Positions 17,133-30,680 of a stretch of 64,000 nt of DNA are shown here, piece by piece. Both the position numbers and the translations under genes were made by a program. The notes under the pieces are model-generated. The model made no database searches. It worked only from the letters and a program-made list of their open reading frames with translations, and had not been told where the DNA came from. Source of the stretch: Leucosporidium creatinivorum (taxonomy: Eukaryota > Basidiomycota > Microbotryomycetes > Leucosporidiales > Leucosporidiaceae); NCBI GenBank assembly GCA_001600635.1, contig BCKL01000001.1, forward strand, positions 523,550-587,549. Reading direction: 5' to 3'. How positions within the stretch are numbered: position 1 is the first letter of the stretch; each line of letters opens with the position of its first letter.

Positions 17133-18201
17133 ATGGCAAGCGTGAAGATTGCTTCACTAGCTCTCAAAACCCTCTCCAAGCCGAGTGAGTCTCCTACTCC
17201 TCCTCCTCCTCCAACAGCCAGCGGCTTCGACAGCGAGCTGACGTTGCTCTGTAGTCGCCATGAGATTGAAGCGCGGAGCAAAGGAGCATGAACGCTTCCG
17301 CGAGCTGACTATCGAGTTTGCACAATTCTTACATCGCTCCGAGATGACGGCGAGTTGGGCTGGAAGAGCTGCCGACTTAGGGCCGTGCGCTGATCTCTGC
17401 TCGTCCTGTAGATGCGAGTGAAGCTGCTGGGAGAGACTCATCCCAAGCACATTCGACCGCTGAACGATGCAAGGTCAGTCCTCGACTTTCTTGAGCTCTC
17501 TGCCGTCGAGCAGACCAGTTGACGTGGTTCCCCTCCCTTCTCTCGGCTCTGTGCTGTTTGTACACAGAGCTATCGACGCTGGCGCCAACTTCATCAGTGA
17601 AGCATTTCTGTTCGCATTCGCTGCAGCCATCAGTGAGCTTTCTTTCTCATATCTCGGCGTTCATCAGCCTCCGCCGAACCTCGTCGCTGACCCTTTCACT
17701 CGGTTCAACAGTCATGGGCGAGACATGGCGCAGTCGACGAGCAGAAGGGAAACGGCGAGATGCGGTGCAGGATCAGCTCGAGACGTATGGTGTCGAGATT
17801 GCCGAGTTGAAGGGGGCGCTAGTGGAGGAGCGGACAGAACGGGAAGCGGGTGTATCGAGGGAGCGTGATCTGGAGAAGATTGTGGAGGAGGTACGTTTGA
17901 TCTCATTTCGCTCCTGTCCCCTCGCCCACTCCCTTGACCCGTCACCTCACGCTGACCCTCCCCTCGCTCGCAGATCGTCGCTATCGGCCTACGGGGCGGC
18001 TTCATCGACGTCTCACCGCAATGGGAGTCACACGTACGGATAGGACAGCAAGCACGAGCGTTCAGGACCTCCGACCGAGCTGTAACGGATGAGCCGGATC
18101 ATGAGGATCTGGAGTCGGCGCCGAGGTCGGTCATTGTGGAGGAGCTGAAGAGGAGCAAAGAGCAGCACAGTAGCTCAGTAGAGAGTAATGATGACCCTTG
18201 A
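17133..18201 (+). CDS. OPA3: OPA3-like mitochondrial protein
   Basis: Orthologue of OPA3, a small mitochondrial membrane protein linked in animals to optic atrophy and 3-methylglutaconic aciduria; its biochemical role is not settled. Six exons (17133-17184, 17255-17349, 17412-17473, 17568-17632, 17712-17890, 17974-18201) give 226 residues. Family signatures are SKPIAMRLK near the N-terminus, FAQFLHRSEM, IRPLNDARAI and a hydrophobic helix FLFAFAAAI, followed by a coiled-coil with charged heptads. Intron 2 appears to be a GC-AG intron: the exon ends at GAG ATG ACG and the intron begins GCGAGT. This choice restores ungapped alignment with the HWVEMRTKM region of animal OPA3. The 3' two thirds of the gene lie in the left arm of a 1.6-kb inverted repeat, and a 5'-truncated copy lies at 29457-30390. 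Confidence 0.85.
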
Positions 18202-18903
18202 TGGGCTCTCCTCCTATCTCGAGGTCAAGTGAGCTTGTTGCTGGCGAAGTTGAGCGGCGAAGGATCGTCGAGGTCGGTTCGCTCGCGACGTAGACGGGTC
18301 GATGAGCAGTCCGGAAGGCTCGTTTGAAGCTGCTACAGGCGAGAGTCATGTACCAACAAGAAGACAGATGCATTCCGAAACCCACTCAGCAAGCTACAAG
18401 TTCATTCCCAACCGCGCGCCGGACCCCTCCTCGAACCTCAAGCCCATCTCATCTCGACACCGGCTTTAAAGCCTAAACTTGAAGTGAGGATTGTCGCTAC
18501 CGAGCTCCGGCTCGGCAGCACCAGCAGCGACGAGTTCTGCCCTGCGAGCGTTGGTCCTCCGAAGAGCCAGGGCGTGAAGGGTCGTGACGATAATGGAGAG
18601 GATGGAGAGGGAGAAGGCGATCCACAGACCCTGGGTATATCTGGGCGCCTGCTTTGCGTTGAATATGAAGCCGATTGCTGCGCCCGAGGAGTCACCGACG
18701 AGCTGCATCAGTCCTGCGAGACAAAGCGCGAGGGTCAGCAGCAAGCTCGGCGCCGAAGAGGATAGCTCACCGACCGATGTAGCTCGGCGGAAGCGACCCG
18801 CCGTGTTCGTGGTAACCCAAGTCACACTAAGCCCTAGTGCCCCATAGAGAGAGAGCCCAACGACGAACACTCCTCCAAAGCGAGTTTTTGGCGACTCGGC
18901 GAT
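17290..18903. repeat. Left arm of 1.6-kb inverted repeat (OPA3 3' part + permease 3' end)
   Basis: The segment from OPA3 exon 2 through the truncated permease tail is repeated in reverse complement at about 28737-30350. Both arms are about 1.61 kb, separated by about 9.8 kb. Small indels occur in the introns. The last OPA3 exon and its 3' flank are almost identical between arms, while the permease-coding part differs more. The outer break falls inside OPA3 exon 2; the inner break falls inside permease exon 11. Confidence 0.9.
18466..18903 (-). pseudogene. Truncated 3' end of ACS-family permease gene
   Basis: The minus strand here repeats the end of the permease gene at 26780-29186. It covers the last part of exon 11 (GLSLYGALGLSVTWVTTNTA) and exon 12 (LMQLVGDSSGAAIGFIF to the stop). 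Only about the last 115 residues are present, with the splice sites kept. Several amino-acid differences from the full copy exist (for example GALGLSVTW against GAVGLNVTW). It has no permease promoter; the DNA upstream is a copy of the oxoprolinase-A promoter and exon 1, joined out of frame. It is therefore a dead fragment created by the duplication. Confidence 0.85.
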
Positions 18904-18905
18904 GC

Positions 18906-19376
18906 CTCAGCAGCTTGACGACGATCTGTGGGGAGATGGGAGGTAGATGAGCATCTGTCGAGAAGCGGGGGGATCTAGACTATCATCACCTCGATGGTTA
19001 TTGAGGCGATGGAGTGCGAAGTGGGGCTACTGTGGTGAAGTCGGCGATTATTCGAAGCGCTCACCTCTTTTCGGTCGCCGCTGGGATCAGGGTTCGAAGC
19101 ATGGATGTCGCTGGAGGTGCCCCCTCTGTCACACGAGATGCGAATGCTGTGTGGCGGCACCACGTAGGTCGCATGAGGCATGGTAGGCGAGCAAAGAGGG
19201 ATGAAGGGGCAGGCGAGGCTCAGGTCGATGAAACAGCAACGAATTGACGAGGTGCAGCAAAGGTAGGTGGTCCTAGAGGTGTCCGAGAAGCAGATAGTAG
19301 TTGGTGAGAGAGCAGCATCCTGTCCAGCGAGCGATTCAAGTCGGCAGCGGAGGCGAGCGCGTGGGGAGAGTACAAG
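18906..19376 (-). repeat. Duplicated promoter, exon 1 and exon-2 edge of the oxoprolinase-A gene
   Basis: This 471-bp segment is a direct repeat of about 22443-22914. It carries 195 bp of upstream DNA, the start codon (19181), all of exon 1 with a changed motif (GGTSSD where the functional gene has GGTFSD), the donor and intron 1, and the first 19 bases or so of exon 2. There it breaks and joins the permease fragment. Downstream reading is out of frame with the permease, so no sensible fusion is expected, but the copied promoter may still be active. Confidence 0.85.
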
Positions 19377-19578: not shown

Positions 19579-22500
19579 CTACTTTGACAGAGTGATATAT
19601 ACATGCTTCGAGGCAATCTTTGCCTCGCTCCCCGGATCTAGTACAAGCGTCTGCGTACCGTCCAGCACGATACAGGGCCCCGCTACCGAGTCGCCCTGCT
19701 CCAGCTTCTCCAACAGGTACACCGGCACGTCGAGTCGTCCTGTACTCTCAAAGTACATACTCGTGGCTCCCTCGCTCTTTGTCGTCGACGCTGGTGCGAA
19801 GGAAAGGCGGGCAACTTCGGCGTAGACGGTCTCGCCAAGCGAGTCGAAGGTCTTGCCGATTCCTCGGACACGGACGTCGTCGACCATGACATTGAGGTCG
19901 AGGAGGAATCCGAACTCGTACTTGTAGGCGTCGAAGAAGGCGGTCTGGAAGTCGAAGGAACCATCGGCGGGCGCGAGGGTCATGAGCGAGGTGTCGGAGC
20001 CGTCGTAGCTGAGGGGAGCGGTCGAGTCAGTGAAGGAGACAGAGTCGGAAGAGGAGAACGACACTCACCGCATGTTCAGGTAGCACTCGGTCTGGATCAT
20101 GTCCTCGGCGAAGCCCTGCGCCTTGAGCTCGGCGACCACCTCCTTCTTCAGCTTCTCTACACGAGATACGAGGTAGCCCTTGGTAGTCGGACTCCAGGTC
20201 TCGGCACAGGGTTCTTGAATCTCGTGTGCTCTGTGGTGCGAGAAGAACGTCAGCCTCAAGCTTTAAGACAGCGGCGGAGGGCAACGTACCGGTCAGCGAG
20301 CGCGAGTCCGTAAGCCGAAAGGATGGACGAGAAGCGGTGGATGAGGACGGTGGTGATTCCGAGCGATCGGGCAATCTCGCAGGCATGTTGTCCGCCAGCT
20401 CCACCAAAAGCTGTTGATAGGAATGAGAGTCAGCTTCAGATGGACAAAGGCAAAGTCGGCGGAGGGCAGCTAAGGAGGCGACCACTCACAGGCAAGAGCG
20501 TGCTTGGCGGTCGAAAATCCACGAGCCTCGGTAAGAGAACGAATCGGGCGTGCCATGGTCTCGTTGGCGACCTTGATGAAGCCGTAGGCGACCTCGTCGA
20601 GGGTCATCGACTTGCCTCCGCTGGCGCCGATGAAGGCATTGATCTGGGAACGGAGCGCCTCGAATGCTGTACGAGACGCCTCGAAGTCCAGAGGCTCCTT
20701 CTCGCTCTTGCCGAAGATCTGCGGGACGTGGATGCGTGAGCGAGGAGCGCCGAAGAAGCGCGAGGAAAGCTCACTTTAGGAAAATACTCGGGAAGCAGAC
20801 GGCCGAGGATGAGGTTGGCGTCGGTGACGGCGAGAGGTCCTCCCTTGCGGTAGCATGCAGGGCCAGGGTGCGCGCCTGCCGACTCGGGACCGACGTTGAA
20901 GAGTCCGTTGCGGAAGGTGAGGCAGCTGCGAAGGAAGTGCGTCAGCATGAGCGCGCTAGGGGAGGAGTAGCTTTGCAGGAAGGTAGCTCACCTGCCTCCA
21001 CCAGCCGCCACGGTATCGATCTTGAGCTGAGGGCTCTGAATCGAGATACCGGCGGTGATCGTCTCGAAGACGGTCTGCGGAAGGCATGAAGCGAGTCAGC
21101 CTCGCTCGTTTTGCTAGGAAGACGTGAGCCCACCTCGTAAGATCCTCCAAAGCGAGAGACGTCGGTCGAGGTTCCTCCCTGCAAGCGAGAGGGCGAGAGG
21201 GGGTCAGCGAGGAGCGGATAACCGAGCACCGAAACCGAACGCAGCGAGAATAGTGCGAAGAAGCTCGAGACTCACCATGTCGAAACCAATCAGAGGCTGC
21301 TTCACCTCATCGTCCCAGCTGGTAAGGCTGTAGCCGACGACGCCTCCAGCGGGTCCACTGAGGAGCGATTTGAGTCCGCCGAACTTGTCGACGTTGACCA
21401 GCGTTCCTTCGCTCGTCATGAACTCGACACGAGCGCCGTCATCATTGCCAGTCGACAGCTTGTCGTCGAAGCCAGCGAAGAAGCCCTTGAGGTAGAGCTT
21501 GAGGACGGGAGTGAGGTAGGCGTCGGCGGCGGTGGAAGTTGCGCGAGGGACCATCTTGATCTGGGGCGAGAGCTGTGAGATGCAGCAAGGTACACGTCAG
21601 CGCGAAGTACAACTCTGTCGCGAGCAGGTTTCCACGCACCACCGAGGAAACCGAGACCTGAGTGAAGCCGATCTTCTCGGCGATAGAAGCGATGAGATTC
21701 TCGTGATCTACGCAAGGAGGGAGGGTCAGGGAAAGCTACCTGTCGGAAAGCAGATCAACTTACCGTTGAAGGTGTAAGAGTGAGCGAGGCAGATGGCGAG
21801 ACCTCGGGTACCCGAGTCGTAGAGGGCTTGCAGGTCGGCGGTGACTTGAGCAACGTCTGCGAGAGCTTGAATGTCAGCTTCGAGCTTCCTCCGCGAGTCA
21901 AAGACAGCAGCAAAAAGTCGTGAGATTCACCTGGCTTCTTCAAGATGCGTACAGCCTCGCCCGAGACTCCTCGAACGATCTCGCCGTCGTGGCCCGAGAC
22001 TACAGCTCCGCTTTCGTCAAACTTGACGCCGGTTTGAGCGAACTCGGGGTCGCTAGTGTAGCCAACAAGAGTCACACGCTCGTCGACCTCGAGCACTGAT
22101 TCGTAGAGCATCTTGGGGCGACGAACGTTGAGGTCGAAGATGCCGGGTCGGCTTTGGTTTGAGATGCGAAGGAGGTCTTTGAAGCCCTTGGTCACGACGA
22201 AGACGAATCCAGCTCCCTTGCGTTCGAGTAGAGCATTGGTGGCGACGGTCGTCGACAGCCTGATGTACTCAATCTTGTCGGTCGGGAGTTTCGTGCCCCG
22301 AGGGAACGACTCGCCGGTGACGGCTTCGAGGACCTGTGGGTAGCTGAGGGTCAGCGAGGGTGTAGGCAGAGAAGATATTAACTTCGTGCTCACGCGACGG
22401 CAGCCCTCGGCGGGCGCGTCGGGGTAGTTGGCCAAGTCGACGCTCAGCAGCTTGAAGACGATCTGTAGGGAGATCGAGGGTAGATGAGCATTCGTCGTGA

Positions 22501-22719
22501 GGCAAGGGGATCCGGACTATCATCGTCTCAATAATTATCGAGACACAGCAGTGCCAAGTGGGGCTGCTGATGGTGAACTCGGCGATTATTCGAAGCGCTC
22601 ACCTCTTTCCGGTCGCCGCTGGGATCAGGGTAAGAAGCATGGATGTCGCTGAACGTGCCCCCTCTGTCACACGAGATGCGAATGCTGTGTGGCGGCACCA
22701 CGTAGGTCGCATGAGGCAT
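19579..22719 (-). CDS. 5-oxoprolinase/hydantoinase, HyuA-type subunit (N-terminal half)
   Basis: ATP-dependent opening of 5-oxoproline to glutamate (or a related cyclic amide), probably cytosolic. Thirteen exons give 755 residues: 22603-22719, 22394-22462, 21931-22333, 21764-21856, 21640-21707, 21276-21572, 21134-21178, 20992-21074, 20775-20925, 20490-20718, 20290-20410, 20069-20230 and 19579-20008. The N-terminal nucleotide motif is DRGGTFSD (residues 18-25); the usual T is S here. The second phosphate motif is [12 protein letters not shown] (about 348-359). Other oxoprolinase signatures are [23 protein letters not shown] and [17 protein letters not shown]. It matches the first half of the roughly 1,290-residue eukaryotic OPLA/OXP1 and then stops; the second half is the divergent gene at 23164. 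Its promoter and first exon are duplicated at 18906-19376. N-methylhydantoinase A is an alternative name, but the sequence looks closer to OPLA. Confidence 0.88.
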
Positions 22720-22914
22720 GGTAGGCGAGAAAAGAGGGGTGAAGGGGCAGGCGAGGCTCAAGTCGATGGAAAAGCAGCGAATTGACGAGGTGCAGCAGAG
22801 TTAGGTGGTCCTAGAGGTGTCCGAGAAGCAGATAGTAGTTGGTGAGAGAGCAGCATCCTGTCCGGCGAGCGATTCAAGTCGGCAGCGGAGGCGAGCGTGT
22901 GGGGAGAGTACAAG
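22443..22914. repeat. Parent copy of the direct repeat (oxoprolinase-A 5' end)
   Basis: This is the functional source of the repeat at 18906-19376: upstream region, exon 1, intron 1 and the beginning of exon 2. The two copies differ by scattered substitutions and small indels, mainly in intron 1. They are in the same orientation, 3.5 kb apart. Confidence 0.85.
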
Positions 22915-23163
22915 TCGCGAATGGTGCGGAGCTCGGGTTTCCTTCCTCGATTTCGGCCTACGGACCATATCCGGCAGGATCATGTGTTATCAAGTGCTCT
23001 GCCCTGCCCCGTACTACCTCCATGCAGCCCGCCGGCTCACTGGCGCCTTTCGCCCTTCTGCAACGACTTGCACCCTTTCGCTCTCACCTCTCGCTCTTTC
23101 TTGCTCGACCAAGTCGATCCTAAGGATTCCTAGCACTTTCTCAGCATCTGCACCTACTCCAAC
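22720..23163. promoter_or_regulatory. Divergent promoter between the two oxoprolinase-half genes
   Basis: A 444-bp gap lies between the two start codons. It holds a TTATCA at about 22987-22992 (TGATAA on the minus strand), which fits the HGATAR core of fungal nitrogen-regulatory GATA factors, and a weaker GATAG at about 22831. A shared bidirectional promoter would give stoichiometric amounts of the two subunits. The site function is inferred from sequence only. Confidence 0.5.
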
Positions 23164-25733
23164 ATGCCTTCTACCACCTCTGCGGTCGCTCCAGCGGATC
23201 CCATCCTGCTCTCGCTCTTCGCTCATCGGTTCATGGCCGTAGCTGAGGCGATGGGCGTCGCACTTCAAAAGACATCTGTATCCACGAATATCAAGGAGCG
23301 GCTCGACTTTTCCTGTGCCCTTTTCGCTCCCAACGGCGACCTAATCGCCAAGTAAGCTTCTCCTTCGCTTTCGGCTACACCAAGCTGCCCTGCGACCATG
23401 TAATCATTTAGAGCTGTAAGCTGACCATCTTTTCTCCTGCAGCGCACCCCATCTACCCGTCCACCTCGGCTCCATGAGGTGAGATCTTCCTCGCCTCGGT
23501 GCTCTCGACTTCGCCGAGCTGACCTCCTTCGCTTCAAAGCTTCGCAGTCAAGTTCCAGATTGATCACCTCGGAATCGGTCCTGATGCTCCCTCCGGCGAA
23601 GGCATCGAGGAAGGCGATGTAGTGAGTACGAGCTGTCTCGGCGCTCATCTCGGCGCTCGGCTAACTCGACCCTTGTCACCACAGATTCTCACCAATGCTC
23701 CCAAGGCAGGCGGAAGTCATCTTCCCGACGTTACCATTATCACTCCCGTCTTTGACAAGGTGAGCGATACTTCGTATCGAGCTCCGGCGCCCTTCGCTGA
23801 CTCTGCTTCGGCGCGATCGCAGGTCACCAAGGAGCTCATCTTCTTCACTGCCAGTCGAGGACATCACGCCGACGTTGGAGGGATCCTTCCCGGGTCCATG
23901 CCGCCCACGAGCACCACCATCTTCCAAGAGGGCGCACAAGTCACGTCGTTCAGGATTGTCAGGAAGGGCAAGTTCGACCAAGCCGGCCTCGAGCGTCACT
24001 TCATCGAGATCCCTGGTGGGTCCTCGTCCAGCTTCTTTGCTCTGACGTAGCTGACCAACCATTCCATCGCTACAGCCTCCTACGAAGGATCGTCGGGCAC
24101 TCGCTGCTTCCGCGACGTCAACTCCGACCTCCAAGCTCAGATCGCCGCCAACACGAAGGGCATCCAGCTCATCGACGCCATGATCCAAGAGTACACCCTC
24201 GACACGACTTTGGCGTACATGACCCACATTCGCAACAACGCCGAGCTGTCGGTTCGGAACCTGCTCCGCGAGGTTGCTGCTCGGCAGTCGTCGCCCGAGG
24301 CTGTCCTGCACCGTATCGAGTACATGGACGACGGCACTCCCATCGGTGAGCCTTACCCCTCCATTACTACGAGACGAGGCTCAGCAAACAGAGCCGAATC
24401 GTCGCCAAGCCTCAGAGACTGACTCTTTCGCCTGGCAGAGCTCACCGTCACCATCGACGCTCAGTCGGGGCAGGCCGTGTTCGACTTCACTGGCACTGGT
24501 CCCGAGATGTGGGGCTCGCTGAACGCGCCCATCTCCATCTGCTACAGCGCTGTTATCTACAGCCTTCGGGCCATGGTCAACCAGGACATCCCCCTCAACG
24601 CCGGCTGCCTCGCGCCGATCACTCTCATTATCCCTCCCAACTCTCTACTCGACCCCTCCGAGACCTGCGCTGTAGTAGGAGGAAACGTCACCACGTCGAT
24701 GCGAATCGTCGACGTCGTTCTTGGCGCGTTCGAGGCGGCTGCGGCCAGCGGCGGCTGCTGTAACAACCTGACCTTTGGCACGGACAAGTATGGGGTATAC
24801 GAGACCGTGGCATCAGGAGCTGGAGCTGGAGCTAATTGGGATGGCGAATCGGGCGTCCACACTCAGTGAGCTGCTCGGCGAGGCTCCTCCGAGCTGTTCT
24901 CGCTGGTCTTTCGAGACGTTCGAGCTCAAGCTGACCTCTTTCCCCTCACTCAGCATGACCAACACTCGTATCACCGATCCCGAGGTGCTCGAACGCCGCT
25001 ACCCTGTTCTACTACACGAGTTCTCCATCCGCGACGACGGCTCGGGCGGCAAAGGCCTCTACCAGGGAGGAGAGGGAGTCGTGCGGGATATCGAGTTTCT
25101 CGAGCCTGTGCAAGCTAGTATCCTTTCTGAGGTGAGTCGCATTTGGACCTCGTGGAGCTCTGTTGAGCTATAGGCGGGAGAAGGAGGCCGAGAGCTGACT
25201 TCCTCTTCGGTTCTCTCCCCTCTTATCCTCTTGGTGTTCTTGCACCCTCACTCCCACACTGCTCCACTCCTCCCTCTACACTATTCATCCTGCACCACAC
25301 TACCCCAATACTCCTCGCCTATCCCTGTCCTCTCCCGCCTCTCAGCGCCGAGTCCACCGCCCGTACGGATTGGCTGGCGGACAGCCCGCCAAGTCGGGCC
25401 AGAACCTTTGGATTAAGAAGACTCGCAAGGCCGACGGCGACTGGAAGAGCGACAACGACCCTGCTCGCATCATCAGCATCGGTGGACGCGCGACGGTCAA
25501 GATGGGAGGTGAGTTCTCGTCCTCGCTTCTGTTGCCATCGAGTTCAGTCGCGCTCATACTGCACTTCTCTCTTCGCTCGTCTAGCTGGAGACCACATCAA
25601 GATCCTGACACCCGGTGGAGGAGGATGGGGCACCCCTGGCCAGAAGCGGGCCCCGAAGGTCGAGCCGCCGAAGCAAGTGTTCGTGCCGAGGGGCAGTCTT
25701 GTAGATCGTCAGGCTTCGCAGCTGGGTGTTTGA
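23164..25733 (+). CDS. 5-oxoprolinase/hydantoinase, HyuB-type subunit (C-terminal half)
   Basis: Second half of an ATP-dependent 5-oxoprolinase, expected to work as a complex with the HyuA-type protein. Ten exons (23164-23351, 23443-23478, 23540-23621, 23685-23759, 23823-24015, 24076-24345, 24439-24865, 24954-25131, 25346-25508, 25585-25733) give 586 residues. Signatures of the HyuB half of OPLA are clear: [70 protein letters not shown] and the terminal [10 protein letters not shown]. The ORF starts at an ATG about ten residues before the segment [14 protein letters not shown], which in animal OPLA lies mid-protein. So this is a separated half and not an internal truncation. A 195-bp fragment of exon 7 and its intron is repeated at 26094-26287. 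Confidence 0.88.
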
Positions 25734-26093
25734 GTTAGTGTAGCGTTTGCTTATTGCGTCTGTGTACTGTATCTATGCTCGCTGTCAGCTCGTCGTTCAA
25801 GGATGGCAAGCTCGGTGAAAGCAGCTCGGCGAAAGGCAGCGCTGGAAGGCTCGCTCTGCGCCTCTGCAATATCCTGAAAGCGGCGCAAACATTCTTACAT
25901 CACGATTTAAAGCGTCTCTGTACTTCGGAGGGTGCTCCCTCGACGCTTGTAGCCCTCCCTCTTCTCGGCGATGCCTCTCCCGAGCTGTTCTCGCTTGCGC
26001 TGACCTGTAGGAAGTCACTGCAGTACTGCGACGAGTTTATCGCAGCCCTATCCATGCTCTAATACAGCTGCGTATTGCTTCACAGCGTCTCGT

Positions 26094-26287
26094 CGACGTC
26101 GTTCTTGGCGTCTTCGAGGCGGTGGCTGCCAGCGGCGGCTGCTGTAACAACCTGACCTTTGGGACGGATCACTGGGGGATGTACGAAACTTGTGCATCAG
26201 GAGCTGGAGCTGGAGCTAATTGGGATGGCGAATCGGGCGTCCACACTCAGTGAGCTGCTCGGCGAGGCTCCTCCGAGCTGTTCTCGC
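26094..26287 (+). pseudogene. Duplicated fragment of oxoprolinase-B exon 7 and intron 7
   Basis: This 194-bp piece repeats about 24710-24904, from VVLGAFEA through the end of exon 7 (SGVHTQ) and the first part of intron 7. It carries a few substitutions (for example the KYGVYETV region now reads HWGMYETC). It has no start codon, promoter or continuation and is a dead fragment, in the same orientation as its parent 1.4 kb upstream. Confidence 0.85.
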
Positions 26288-26779: not shown

Positions 26780-29186
26780 ATGAGCCAGCGCTCCGCCGAC
26801 GACAAGATGGTAGACGGAAAGACGACCACACCTACGGAACTTTCAGCACATCAAGCTCCCATCGATTCGGAGCTGTACATTGATCCCATGGAGGAGAAGA
26901 AGCTACTTCGGAAGGTGAGCCGCGCCGTCGGCTCTTCTGCACCTTGTCGTGAATTGACAGACCTCGGTCCTGCTTTGATGTACTCCTTCACTCTTCACAA
27001 TTATGTCTGACTACAGCTGGACGCCTTCCTCATCTCCATTCTTGGCACCCTCTACCTTCTCTCCTTCCTCGATCGGTCGAACATTGGGTGAGCCGCTGCA
27101 CGCTTCCACCGGACTTGGCTCTCTTCATGCTGACCTCGTACTCGTCTTCAGAAACGCTAACATCGCGGGCATGTCCACCGATTTGAAGCTCGTCGGCAAT
27201 CAGTAGTAAGGCTTCAAGCTCTCGCTCGGCTTCGCTCTCAAGCTCCGAGCTCACCAGTTCATGCTTCTATAAGTGGTGCGGCCGTGTCGGTCTTGTACAG
27301 CACCTACGTTTCATTCGAACCTCTATGGTAAGCAGCATCGTCTCCACCGTGTCGTTGGAGCCAAGCTCGGCGCTTGTCGGTTCGCCGAGCTTTCCGCTAA
27401 GGCTTGACCCTGCAGGGCCAACATGCTCAAGATCGTCGGCGCCCAACGCCTCATGACCATCTCTACAACACTTTGGGGTGCCGTTACCATCGGAACCGCC
27501 TTCGTACAGAATTGGGATCAGCTCATGGCCGTCCGAGTCCTTCTTGGCGCTTTCGAAGCCGGTGAGTCGTTGCTCTGCTCTTCAGACAATTAGTGGTAGA
27601 GCTGTAGGATGATGTATGGCGCTTGAGGATACAGCAGGCGCACAAGGGTGTCTGACTGCTCGTGCTAACGCTTTGCCGCCTCCGATTTAACAGGTCTGTT
27701 CCCCTGCGTGAACATGTACCTGGCCATGAGCTTCAGGCCAGAAGAGATGGGTCGCCGACTGTCGTACATCTTCTGCGCGGCTGCCCTTGCACGTCGTCTC
27801 TCCGCGGCTTCGGTGGGCTGTAAGCTTAGAACTGCGCTGACCGAGTTGTCCTTCACACAGAGCGGCGCATTTGGCGGTCTTCTTGCGTTTGGACTGACTC
27901 AGATCAAAGGAGGTCCACTAGCAAGCTGGCAATACCTGTGAGTTCCCTCTCGGCGTTTCAGCGCTCGCCTCGCTCGACGTTCTCAGGGTCATGGAAGGCT
28001 AATGCAGGTGCTGCCTCCTCAGGTATCTGGTCGAAGGCATTATCTCCCTTTCCTTCGCGCCCATCATCTACTTCATGCTCCCCAACACTCTTGACAAGGT
28101 GAGCCGGAGCTTTCTTCCTTTCGCCGCCATCTCCTCCGGAGGATCCCATCCACCGTGGTCTCGTCAAATCTGCTTCCGACGCCCTTCGAGATTGTAGCTG
28201 TACTTTAGCTTCGACTGACGCCTCTCTGTCACTTCCGCAGGCCTGGTGGCTTAACCGTCGCGAGCGCGAGCTCTGCGTAATCCGCTACGAGATTAACAAG
28301 GTCAACTTCAACCTCAATGAGGAGTTCTCGTGGTATCAGGTCAAGCTTGCCGCCCTCGACTGGATGACATGGAGCCACTCGGTCAACCAATTTTGTGTGG
28401 ACGTCACCCTCTACGTGAGTCGCCGACCTCATCGCCGAGACGTCAAACTGACCCTCTTCGTGCTATAGGGCCTTACCACCTTCATGCCCGTCATCATCAA
28501 AGGGCTGAACCTTACCAAGAACACTGTCGACGCCCAGCTTTTGACTGTCCCCGTCTACTTCGTCGCTGCCGCCTCTTATGTCGTCGGCGCTCGCTACTCG
28601 GACAAGTACCAGTGAGCAAAGTCTTGTCCTCTGAGCTTGTTTAGTAGATGAGAGCTAACGCGGACGCTTCCAGGCTCCGCTCGCCATTTATCATCCTCTA
28701 CATGTCTCTCGCCGCCATCGGCTACCTCATCCTCGCCATCGCCGAGTCGCCAAAGACTCGCTTTGGAGGCGTATTCGTCGTCGGGCTCGCTCTCTATGGT
28801 GCCGTCGGCCTTAATGTGACTTGGGTCACCACAAATACGGCAGGCCACTTCCGCCGAGCTACATCGGTCGGTGAGTTATCCGCCTCCTCATCTTGCGCCG
28901 AGCTTGATCGCTGACCCTCGCGTCGTCTCTCGCAGGACTGATGCAGCTCGTCGGCAACTCCTCGGGCGCAGCAATCGGCTTCATCTTTTCCGCCGTAGAC
29001 GCGCCTCGATACACCAAAGGTCTCTGGATCGCCTTCTCCCTCTCCATCCTCTCCATCGTCGTGACGACCCTCCACGCCCTTGCCCTTCGAAGGATCAACG
29101 CTCGTAGGGCAGAGCTCGTCGCGGCTGGTGCTGCCGACCAGCCGGAGCTCGGTAGCGACAACCCTCACTTCAAATTTATGCTTTAG
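26780..29186 (+). CDS. ACS-family MFS permease (allantoate/nicotinate-type anion transporter)
   Basis: Plasma-membrane major-facilitator permease of the anion:cation symporter family (Dal5, Tna1 and relatives), which import organic anions such as allantoate, nicotinate or small peptides. Twelve exons (26780-26914, 27017-27087, 27152-27205, 27274-27327, 27416-27561, 27694-27812, 27861-27937, 28023-28098, 28241-28414, 28469-28611, 28674-28870, 28936-29186) give 498 residues. The family motif FLDRSNIGNANIAGM lies at the end of helix 1, followed by NQYGAAVSVLYSTYV and SGAFGGLLAFGL; a long hydrophilic loop after helix 6 and a cytoplasmic C-terminus are typical. Intron 6 (27813-27860) is 48 bp and free of stops. 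Its position beside the oxoprolinase halves suggests it imports their substrate or a precursor. Exons 2-4 are duplicated at 30365-30680 and its 3' end at 18466-18903. Confidence 0.85.
27014..27328. repeat. Parent of a 0.31-kb direct repeat (permease exons 2-4)
   Basis: Permease exons 2 to 4 with introns 2 and 3 are repeated in the same orientation at about 30365-30680. From about 27058 to 27305 the two copies appear identical or nearly so, including intron sequence. The edges are more diverged. Confidence 0.9.
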
Positions 29187-30350
29187 ACCGGGCGTCGAGA
29201 TGGGCTCGAGGCTCGAAAGAGGGTTCGGGCGCGGGATTGGGAATGGAGTTGTAGCATGCTTAGTGGGTTTCAGAATGCATCTGTCTTCTTGTTGGTACAT
29301 GACTCTCGCCTGTAGCAGCTTCAAACGAGCCTTCCGCACTGCTCATCGACCCGTCTACGTCGCGGGCGAACCAACCTCGGCGATCCTTCGCCGCTCAACT
29401 TCGCCAGCAACAAGCTCACTTGACCTCGAGATAGGAGGAGAGCCCATCAAGGGTCATCATTACTCTCTACTGAGCTACTGTGCTGCTCTTTGCTCCTCTT
29501 CAGCTCCTCCACAATGACCGACCTCGGCGCCGACTCCAGATCCTCATGATCCGGCTCATCCGTTACAGCTCGGTCGGAGGTCCTGAACGCTCGTGCTTGC
29601 TGTCCTATCCGTACGTGTGACTCCCATTGCGGTGAGATGTCGATGAAGCCGCCTCGTAGGCCAATGGCGACGATCTGCGAGCGAGGGGAGGGTCAGCGTG
29701 AGGTGACAGGTCAAGGGAGTGGGCGAGGGGACAGGAGCGAAATGAGATCAAACGTACCTCCTCCACAATCTTCACCAGATCACGCTCCCTCGATACACCC
29801 GCTTCCCGTTCTGTCCGCTCCTCCACCAGCGCCTCCTTCAACTCGGCAATCTCGACACCATACGTCTCGAGCTGATCCTGCACCACATCTCGCCGTTTCC
29901 CTTCTGCTCGTCGACTGCGCCATGTCTCGCCCATGACTGTTGAACCGAGTGAAAGGGTCAGCGACGAGGTTCGGCGGAGGCTGATGAACGCCGAGATATG
30001 AGAAAGAAAGCTCACTGATGGCCGCAGCAAATGCGAACAGGAATGCTTCACTGATGAAGCTTGCGCCAGCATCGATAGCCCTGTATACGAGCCGCAGGGA
30101 GCCGAGAGAAGGGAGGGGAACGACGTCGGCTGGACTGCTCGACGACAAAGAGCTCGAGAACGCCGAGGACTGGCCTTGCATCGTTCAGCGGTCGAATGTG
30201 CTTGGGATGAGTCTCTCCCAGTAGCTTCACTCGCATCTACAAGGCGAGCAGAGGTAAGCGAACGGCCACGAGCTCGTCCAGCCTGACTCGCCGTCATCTC
30301 GGAGCGATGTAAGATCTGAGCAAACTCGATAGTCAGCTCGCGGAAGCGCT
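28737..30350. repeat. Right arm of 1.6-kb inverted repeat
   Basis: Reverse complement of about 17290-18903. This arm includes the complete 3' end of the functional permease gene and a truncated OPA3 copy, tail to tail. The left arm has the opposite state: complete OPA3 and truncated permease. Arm lengths match to within a few bases at the breakpoints. Confidence 0.9.
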
Positions 30351-30390
30351 TGTGTTGATTGGCGTAGCTGAACCTCCACCTCATCTCCAT
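29457..30390 (-). pseudogene. 5'-truncated, chimeric second copy of OPA3
   Basis: The minus strand repeats OPA3 from within exon 2 (FRELTIEFAQ) to the stop (29457). Exon 1 and the first part of exon 2, which hold the mitochondrial-targeting-like N-terminus, are missing. In their place, antisense sequence of the permease fragment supplies an ATG at 30390 (and 30384) in frame, so the ORF would begin MEMRWRFSYANQHK and run into FRELTIEF. The GC donor of intron 2 is kept. The donor of intron 3 has changed from GT to GC, which probably weakens splicing. No frame-breaking change was seen in the remaining exons. It is most likely a pseudogene, with a small chance of an expressed, mislocalised chimera. 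Confidence 0.75.
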
Positions 30391-30680
30391 ACTCGGCACT
30401 CGCTACCTTCTCTCCTTCCTCGATCGGTCGAACATTGGGTGAGCCGCTGCACGCTTCCACCGGACTTGGCTCTCTTCATGCTGACCTCGTACTCGTCTTC
30501 AGAAACGCTAACATCGCGGGCATGTCCACCGATTTGAAGCTCGTCGGCAATCAGTAGTAAGGCTTCAAGCTCTCGCTCGGCTTCGCTCTCAAGCTCCGAG
30601 CTCACCAGTTCATGCTTCTATAAGTGGTGCGGCCGTGTCGGTCTTGTACAGCACCACGTTTCATTCGAGCCGTCAAGGCA
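30365..30680 (+). pseudogene. Duplicated permease exons 2-4
   Basis: A direct copy of 27014-27328, carrying exon 2, intron 2, exon 3, intron 3 and most of exon 4. The interior is essentially identical to the parent. The coding strand has no start or continuation. It abuts the outer end of the right inverted-repeat arm, and its antisense strand provides the chimeric start of the OPA3 copy. Confidence 0.9.

Follow-up and report, generated by a model that had tools for sequence, protein, structure and literature searches.

What becomes of a metabolic enzyme that eukaryotes make as one long chain when its two halves are found as two genes on opposite strands? This is the question raised by a stretch of 64,000 nucleotides (hereafter the window) from the basidiomycete Leucosporidium creatinivorum (assembly GCA_001600635.1, contig BCKL01000001.1, positions 523,550 to 587,549), in which two neighboring genes, A1 and B1, encode the HyuA-type and HyuB-type halves of 5-oxoprolinase, known as OPLA or, in yeast, Oxp1. 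The answer proposed here is that A1 and B1 are probably the outcome of a real, derived fission of a fused OPLA-type gene, that this fission came before the pair was duplicated, and that the two proteins would make up a two-subunit lactam hydrolase dependent on adenosine triphosphate (ATP). A eukaryotic metabolic enzyme that goes from a single chain to two, in a genome where a fused paralogue is still present, offers a natural test of the need for joined OPLA halves. The locus consists of the following features, in coordinates of the window.

19579..22719, minus strand: A1, HyuA-type half of 5-oxoprolinase, 13 exons, 755 amino acids, intact (spliced model, Pfam, trees).
22720..23163, no strand: 444-bp stretch separating the start codons, a candidate promoter for both directions (from the gene coordinates).
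23164..25733, plus strand: B1, HyuB-type half of 5-oxoprolinase, 10 exons, 586 amino acids, intact (spliced model, Pfam, tree).

Are these two genes whole? After removal of 12 GT-AG introns, the coding sequence of A1 (22719..19579) reads as a single open frame, and so does that of B1 (23164..25733) after removal of nine; each has one stop, at its end. The genes lie head to head, with 444 nt (22720-23163) between their ATGs, and together their products count 1,341 residues. A1 carries the Pfam domains Hydant_A_N, Hydantoinase_A, and Hydant_A_C, and B1 carries Hydantoinase_B at full length (profile positions 1-519 of 519), all above cut-off. In alignment, the break between A1 and B1 falls in the linker through which fused relatives continue. 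The original prediction had described two divergent genes of these lengths and coordinates, with a 444-bp gap between their starts, the minus-strand gene being the first part of OPLA and the plus-strand gene the rest; the rechecked splicing, the domains, and the position of the break in the linker agree with this description throughout. The intergenic region could drive co-expression of A1 and B1 as a shared promoter. GATA sites in the upstream regions amount to 0-3 per region, too small a number for a judgment.

Another question is whether the split is peculiar to this locus. Domain searches with Hydantoinase_B, Hydantoinase_A, and Hydant_A_N over the whole 27.7-Mb, 63-contig assembly gave four loci: the A1-B1 pair and three others.

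Contig C19: fused OPLA-type gene (hereafter C19), model of 1297 amino acids with 23 introns.
Contig C1, about 1014152-1017123, 0.47 Mb from A1-B1: A2, lone A-type gene, 795 amino acids (locus L025).
Contig C7, about 273.4-276.3 kb: B2, lone B-type gene, 596 amino acids (locus L024).

The genome holds, in total, three A-type and three B-type parts, one couple of which is fused. A separate, undivided OPLA is thus present in C19, whose exon 13 spans the end of the A part, the linker, and the start of the B part with no stop. In these whole-genome searches there was no B-type gene near A2 and no A-type gene near B2. A2 and B2 are broken at the same place as A1 and B1, and the N-termini of B1 and B2 are both short, starting just ahead of the same DPILLSLF.

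How close are these parts to one another, and to what else? A1 is 57% identical to A2 and 53% to the A part of C19, and B1 is 63% identical to B2 and 47% to the B part of C19. Against three plasmid-borne fused OPLA-type proteins (Rhizobium, Tistrella, and Sulfitobacter) the figures are about 40% for A1 and 42-45% for B1, whereas A1 is 28-30% identical to three bacterial split HyuA proteins and B1 29-32% to three split HyuB proteins; the fused or split state was taken from annotation for five of these six plasmid loci, and the sixth, the unannotated Tistrella locus, reads as a single frame of 1259 residues. In GTDB contigs, a scan of which retained the best 80 of 585 prokaryotic relatives, the identity to fused OPLA rises to as much as 48% for the A half and 56% for the B half. 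Among these 80 loci, both halves lie in one frame in 71 and in two frames in five, while four have the B half only. The viral contigs that were searched contained no relative of B1.

The trees were built from 38 rows for the A half and 39 for the B half, with an additional quick A tree of 39 rows. From the prokaryotic scan they took in 33 of the 76 loci with two halves, the matched length being at least 600 for A and at least 440 for B, and each locus being either numbered up to L047, spread over two frames, or taken as every third in numerical order; L043 and L048 are among those left out owing to short matches, and L060 was omitted from the careful A tree as a long branch. Both trees recover the same topology, in which the two split pairs are sisters and the fused C19 joins them next: A1 groups with A2 (support 99/96) and then with C19 (100/100), and B1 groups with B2 (100/98) and then with C19 (97/87). 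The quick A tree concurs. The pairs and C19 fall in a clade of 10 rows, the remaining seven being fused prokaryotic proteins, and in both trees the three bacterial HyuA/HyuB pairs stand apart as an outgroup on long branches. With the halves joined (19 rows, without the HyuA/HyuB pairs, L057, L060, L093, L077, and others), the approximately unbiased (AU) test rejects a grouping of pair 1, A1-B1, with C19 (p 0.0013) as well as a grouping of pair 2, A2-B2, with C19 (p 0.0028). The minimum number of changes between the fused and split states on this joined tree is three.

The introns tell of the same relationship. Two intron positions, in the same phase, are common to A1 and A2 (of 12 and 9, respectively) and one is common to B1 and B2 (of 9 and 14), while none is shared between either pair and C19. 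About 0.12 shared introns would be expected, and the probability of at least three is ~3e-4, if sites were uniform; uniform placement is not realistic, so that this value serves as a guide only. In both A1/A2 and B1/B2, third codon positions differ in a proportion of 0.53-0.55 versus 0.21-0.33 at the first two, second positions differing by 21-24%, and this excess at third positions is as expected for genes under coding constraint.

Taken together, the same break, the shared introns, and the trees argue that the split predates the duplication that gave the two pairs. The sequence of events was then probably as follows. A fused OPLA gene of this fungal lineage would have been duplicated, and one copy would have stayed fused, being the gene now on contig C19. 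The other copy would have split once in the HyuA-HyuB linker, as a single event by parsimony, and the split set would have been duplicated in turn, leaving A1 and B1 head to head and A2 and B2 apart.

Could the fission instead have happened here, and recently? The original prediction had it so: a fused gene was broken at the A1-B1 locus alone, one half was flipped, and a new two-subunit enzyme arose. The head-to-head order of A1 and B1 invites this thought, and so do the recent partial duplicates (85-96% identity) and the 1.6-kb inverted repeat at the locus, described below. However, A2 and B2 lie on other stretches of the genome, share the site of the break, and are the sisters of A1 and B1 to the exclusion of C19, so that a fission at this locus is not supported; the three shared introns and the trees point the same way, and the divergence of A1 from A2 (57% identical amino acids) goes back much further than the local duplicates. 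A recent local fission with inversion is therefore contradicted, and we regard it as very improbable. What survives of that proposal is the gene fission itself, an origin from a fused OPLA-type gene being supported by the identities, the trees, and the AU tests, while the inversion of A relative to B is unproven. A better contender, even if still an unlikely one, is that the fused gene was duplicated intact and both copies were later broken independently at the same linker. This linker is a natural weak point, given that a separate fission near the same place is seen in a group of cyanobacteria (L055, L068, and L077), but two events are needed where one would do, and B1 and B2 share the short N-terminus just before DPILLSLF. 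The least credible of the alternatives is that a bacterial split HyuA/HyuB pair was acquired by transfer and gained its introns afterward. The two-chain layout is indeed found in bacterial hydantoinases and caprolactamase, according to the accessible text of PMC8453981; yet both halves nest with C19 in the fused clade, and their identity to the three bacterial split pairs is 28-32% versus 40-56% to fused OPLA-type proteins, so that the nearest relatives are not the bacterial HyuA/HyuB proteins sampled. With three such pairs included, neither tree places the halves inside a HyuA/HyuB clade, and the transfer candidate was rejected on both. The earlier impression that the halves look more like OPLA than like bacterial hydantoinases is borne out by the same identities and trees.

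Some observations weigh against an old, single fission. The AU test on the A half alone fails to reject a grouping of A1 with the A part of C19 (p 0.068; the corresponding value for A2 with this part is 0.011), and the branch leading to the B part of C19 is long (1.49). In these trees the eukaryotic rows come from this genome only, which leaves the branching order of other eukaryotic OPLAs outside the sample. Finally, an unverified yeast Oxp1 sequence falls beside C19 for the A half (86/82) and beside the split pair for the B half (80/77); with 11 prokaryotic rows, both placements are weak and give a lead only.

As for what has been described elsewhere, no report of a split fungal 5-oxoprolinase was found among the matches listed from the open-licence PubMed Central literature. 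Three 5-oxoprolinases are mentioned for Rhodosporidium toruloides IFO0559 in the accessible part of PMC11982011, and that of PMC11580864 names human OPLA as one of the proteins whose homologues in gut microbes are split. Two-chain members of the superfamily are well known in bacteria (PMC8453981, accessible text); here, the finding looks like an old fission with two copies of each half.

If the fission is accepted, do the two chains still make an enzyme? The most instructive comparison is with caprolactamase, CapAB, from Pseudomonas jessenii (PDB 6yra). In the accessible text of PMC8453981, this enzyme is an (AB)2 assembly with the ATP site in A and the metal site in B, and its chains align to two parts of eukaryotic OPLA. 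Since the fission point lies between parts that are separate in bacteria, a two-chain enzyme is plausible without any new parts. The metal ligands of CapB, D41, H99, D102, and H124, correspond to D48, H114, D117, and H141 of B1 (from the alignment, counted by hand), and the same four letters occur in all 39 rows of the B alignment. CapA D295 corresponds to A1 D348, again the same in 39/39 A rows, and CapA D11 to A1 D18, by motif only, in all 36 A rows that have a letter there. A1 and B1 have, in other words, the ATP-site and metal-site residues of the CapAB type, and their conservation makes a two-subunit enzyme like bacterial CapAB likely. The phosphate-1 motif DRGGT is present too, as DRGGTFS in A1; C19 also has DRGGT, and DRGGTF occurs in 30 of the 33 prokaryotic OPLA-type rows, the other three being without a match there. 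A2 differs from A1 and C19 in reading DTGGTF, which hints at a possible functional difference of pair 2.

The likeness to CapAB has limits. Both have the two-subunit layout and matching ATP and metal residues, whereas CapAB is bacterial, distant in sequence, and encoded in the order B-A (PMC8453981, accessible text). Scores with the curated caprolactamase models of NCBIfam are 240.4 and 173.8 bits against a cut-off of 1000, so that A1/B1 may work like CapAB yet are not a caprolactamase by this measure. It also speaks against a firm assignment that the NCBIfam matches are to models of CapAB and of acetophenone carboxylase, all under cut-off. With the bacterial HyuA/HyuB pairs, A1/B1 have in common that the A and B genes are separate, and they differ in that the three pairs used stand apart as the outgroup noted above. 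With eukaryotic OPLA and yeast Oxp1, they share the HyuA N-terminal, HyuA, and HyuB domains, and Pfam and the trees place A1/B1 in this family, where each half branches with its counterpart in the fused paralogue C19. The difference is that eukaryotic OPLA is one chain of about 1250 residues (accessible text of PMC8453981), a trait kept by C19, while A1/B1 are two genes, on opposite strands, and two chains. A practical consequence is that gene finders and family counts built around a single long protein may mistake split genes of this kind for bacterial-like hydantoinases.

By this comparison, A would probably bind ATP and phosphorylate the lactam to activate it, and the metal site of B would take part in the opening of the ring. 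To judge from the conserved residues and from the structure of CapAB as published, A and B would associate as (AB)2. The most likely substrate would be 5-oxoproline or a lactam close to it, and the gene order suggests that the product of the neighboring gene T may import it. A more elaborate picture is a true two-subunit OPLA system, in which A1B1, A2B2, and the mixed forms A1B2 and A2B1 would have differing lactam preferences, A1-B1 together with T serving for external 5-oxoproline; this is a speculative extension that we think unlikely.

The gene in question follows B1 and is read in the same direction.

26780..29186, plus strand: T, transporter of the major facilitator superfamily (MFS), 12 exons, about 498 amino acids, one exon border unsure.

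Is T a transporter for the substrate of A1/B1? Its best NCBIfam subfamily is TIGR00893, with 170 bits, under the cut-off of 395. In the accessible part of PMC7212421, the genes acquired by wine yeasts include an OXP1 5-oxoprolinase (B25) followed by a TNA1-like MFS gene (B26). This set, derived from Z. bailii, resembles B1-T in that a 5-oxoprolinase is listed beside an MFS gene of TNA1/D-galactonate type, and differs in having one 5-oxoprolinase gene and in that its adjacency on the DNA is deduced from the numbering. The yeast transporter of 5-oxoproline is not known, as stated in the accessible text of PMC13398684. By its neighborhood, T is a fair candidate for a 5-oxoproline importer, and its place beside a split 5-oxoprolinase makes it a concrete one. 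Counting against this, the MFS family is large in this genome, with 82 first-look candidates, 10 of which were scored, T not being among the ten listed; T may stand next to B1 by chance. C19 has an MFS-like neighbor of its own, identical to T in 79 of 243 aligned columns over its first 241 residues; this fragment scores 33.0 bits with MFS_1 against a cut-off of 33.4, and its best NCBIfam match is again TIGR00893, also under cut-off. When T was aligned to six 10-kb stretches in the surroundings of A2, B2, and C19, excluding those that contain A2 (L025) and B2 (L024) themselves, no copy of it stood out: the spliced-alignment scores on both strands were 94-131 versus 2431 for T itself, and were taken as noise.

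The A1-B1-T block is also surrounded by partial copies of its own genes.

17278..18904, no strand: left arm of an inverted repeat, with part of an OPA3-like gene and the T 3' end.
18467..18904, minus strand: partial duplicate of the T 3' end, inverted, 85% identical to 28737-29185.
18906..19376, minus strand: partial duplicate of A1 at its 5' end, from the upstream part through exon 1 and intron 1 into the start of exon 2, 91% identical to 22443-22914.
26090..26287, plus strand: partial duplicate of B1, 91% identical to 24706-24903, where exon 7 ends and intron 7 starts.
28737..30363, no strand: right arm of the inverted repeat, pairing with 17278..18904.
30366..30671, plus strand: partial duplicate of T exons 2-4, 96% identical to 27015-27321.

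The inverted repeat, of about 1.6 kb, encloses the whole A1-B1-T block as a sign of later rearrangement, and a DNA search of the entire genome found it in these two places only. Part of the intergenic region, 22720-22914, is duplicated at 19182-19376, and the exon part of the B1 duplicate at 26090..26287 is still an open frame. At 18904/18906 the copy of the T 3' end abuts that of the A1 5' end; the resulting chimera (18860-19190: T 3' end with the A1 upstream part, exon 1, and intron 1) has mismatched frames, as judged by eye. Either an inversion of the complete A1-B1-T block, its breaks being staggered, or repeated copying on the spot would be consistent with this pattern. The local copies are far younger than the divergence of A1 and A2, and they are uninformative as to the opposed orientation of A and B.

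Split OPLA genes are found in prokaryotes as well, and three of the five two-frame loci among the best 80 of 585 relatives were counted as real splits. These are L055, L068, and L077, from Crocosphaera and Nostoc, where OPLA is encoded as separate A and B genes among fused cyanobacterial OPLA; this is an independent fission. As with A1/B1, a fused OPLA-type gene was split near the same linker; unlike them, the two frames lie on one strand, with 35-1475 bp between them. In L048 (Legionella brunensis) and L116 (Hyphomicrobium), the OPLA-type gene is broken by one in-frame stop, the gap being 3 bases. Among the four loci with the B half only, L089 and L102 begin at a contig end, while L052 (Crocosphaera) and L075 (Microcystis) do not; these last two have no A half within the fetched flanks and are perhaps cases of OPLA with unlinked halves. 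On the side of the fused proteins, the first eight loci of the scan, L037-L044, from SAR324, Desulfobulbaceae, and other metagenome-assembled genomes, are all in one frame, with 49-56% identity in the B half, and are nearer to the OPLAs of this genome than the other prokaryotic OPLA sampled, a closeness that may bear on the origin of the eukaryotic OPLA gene.

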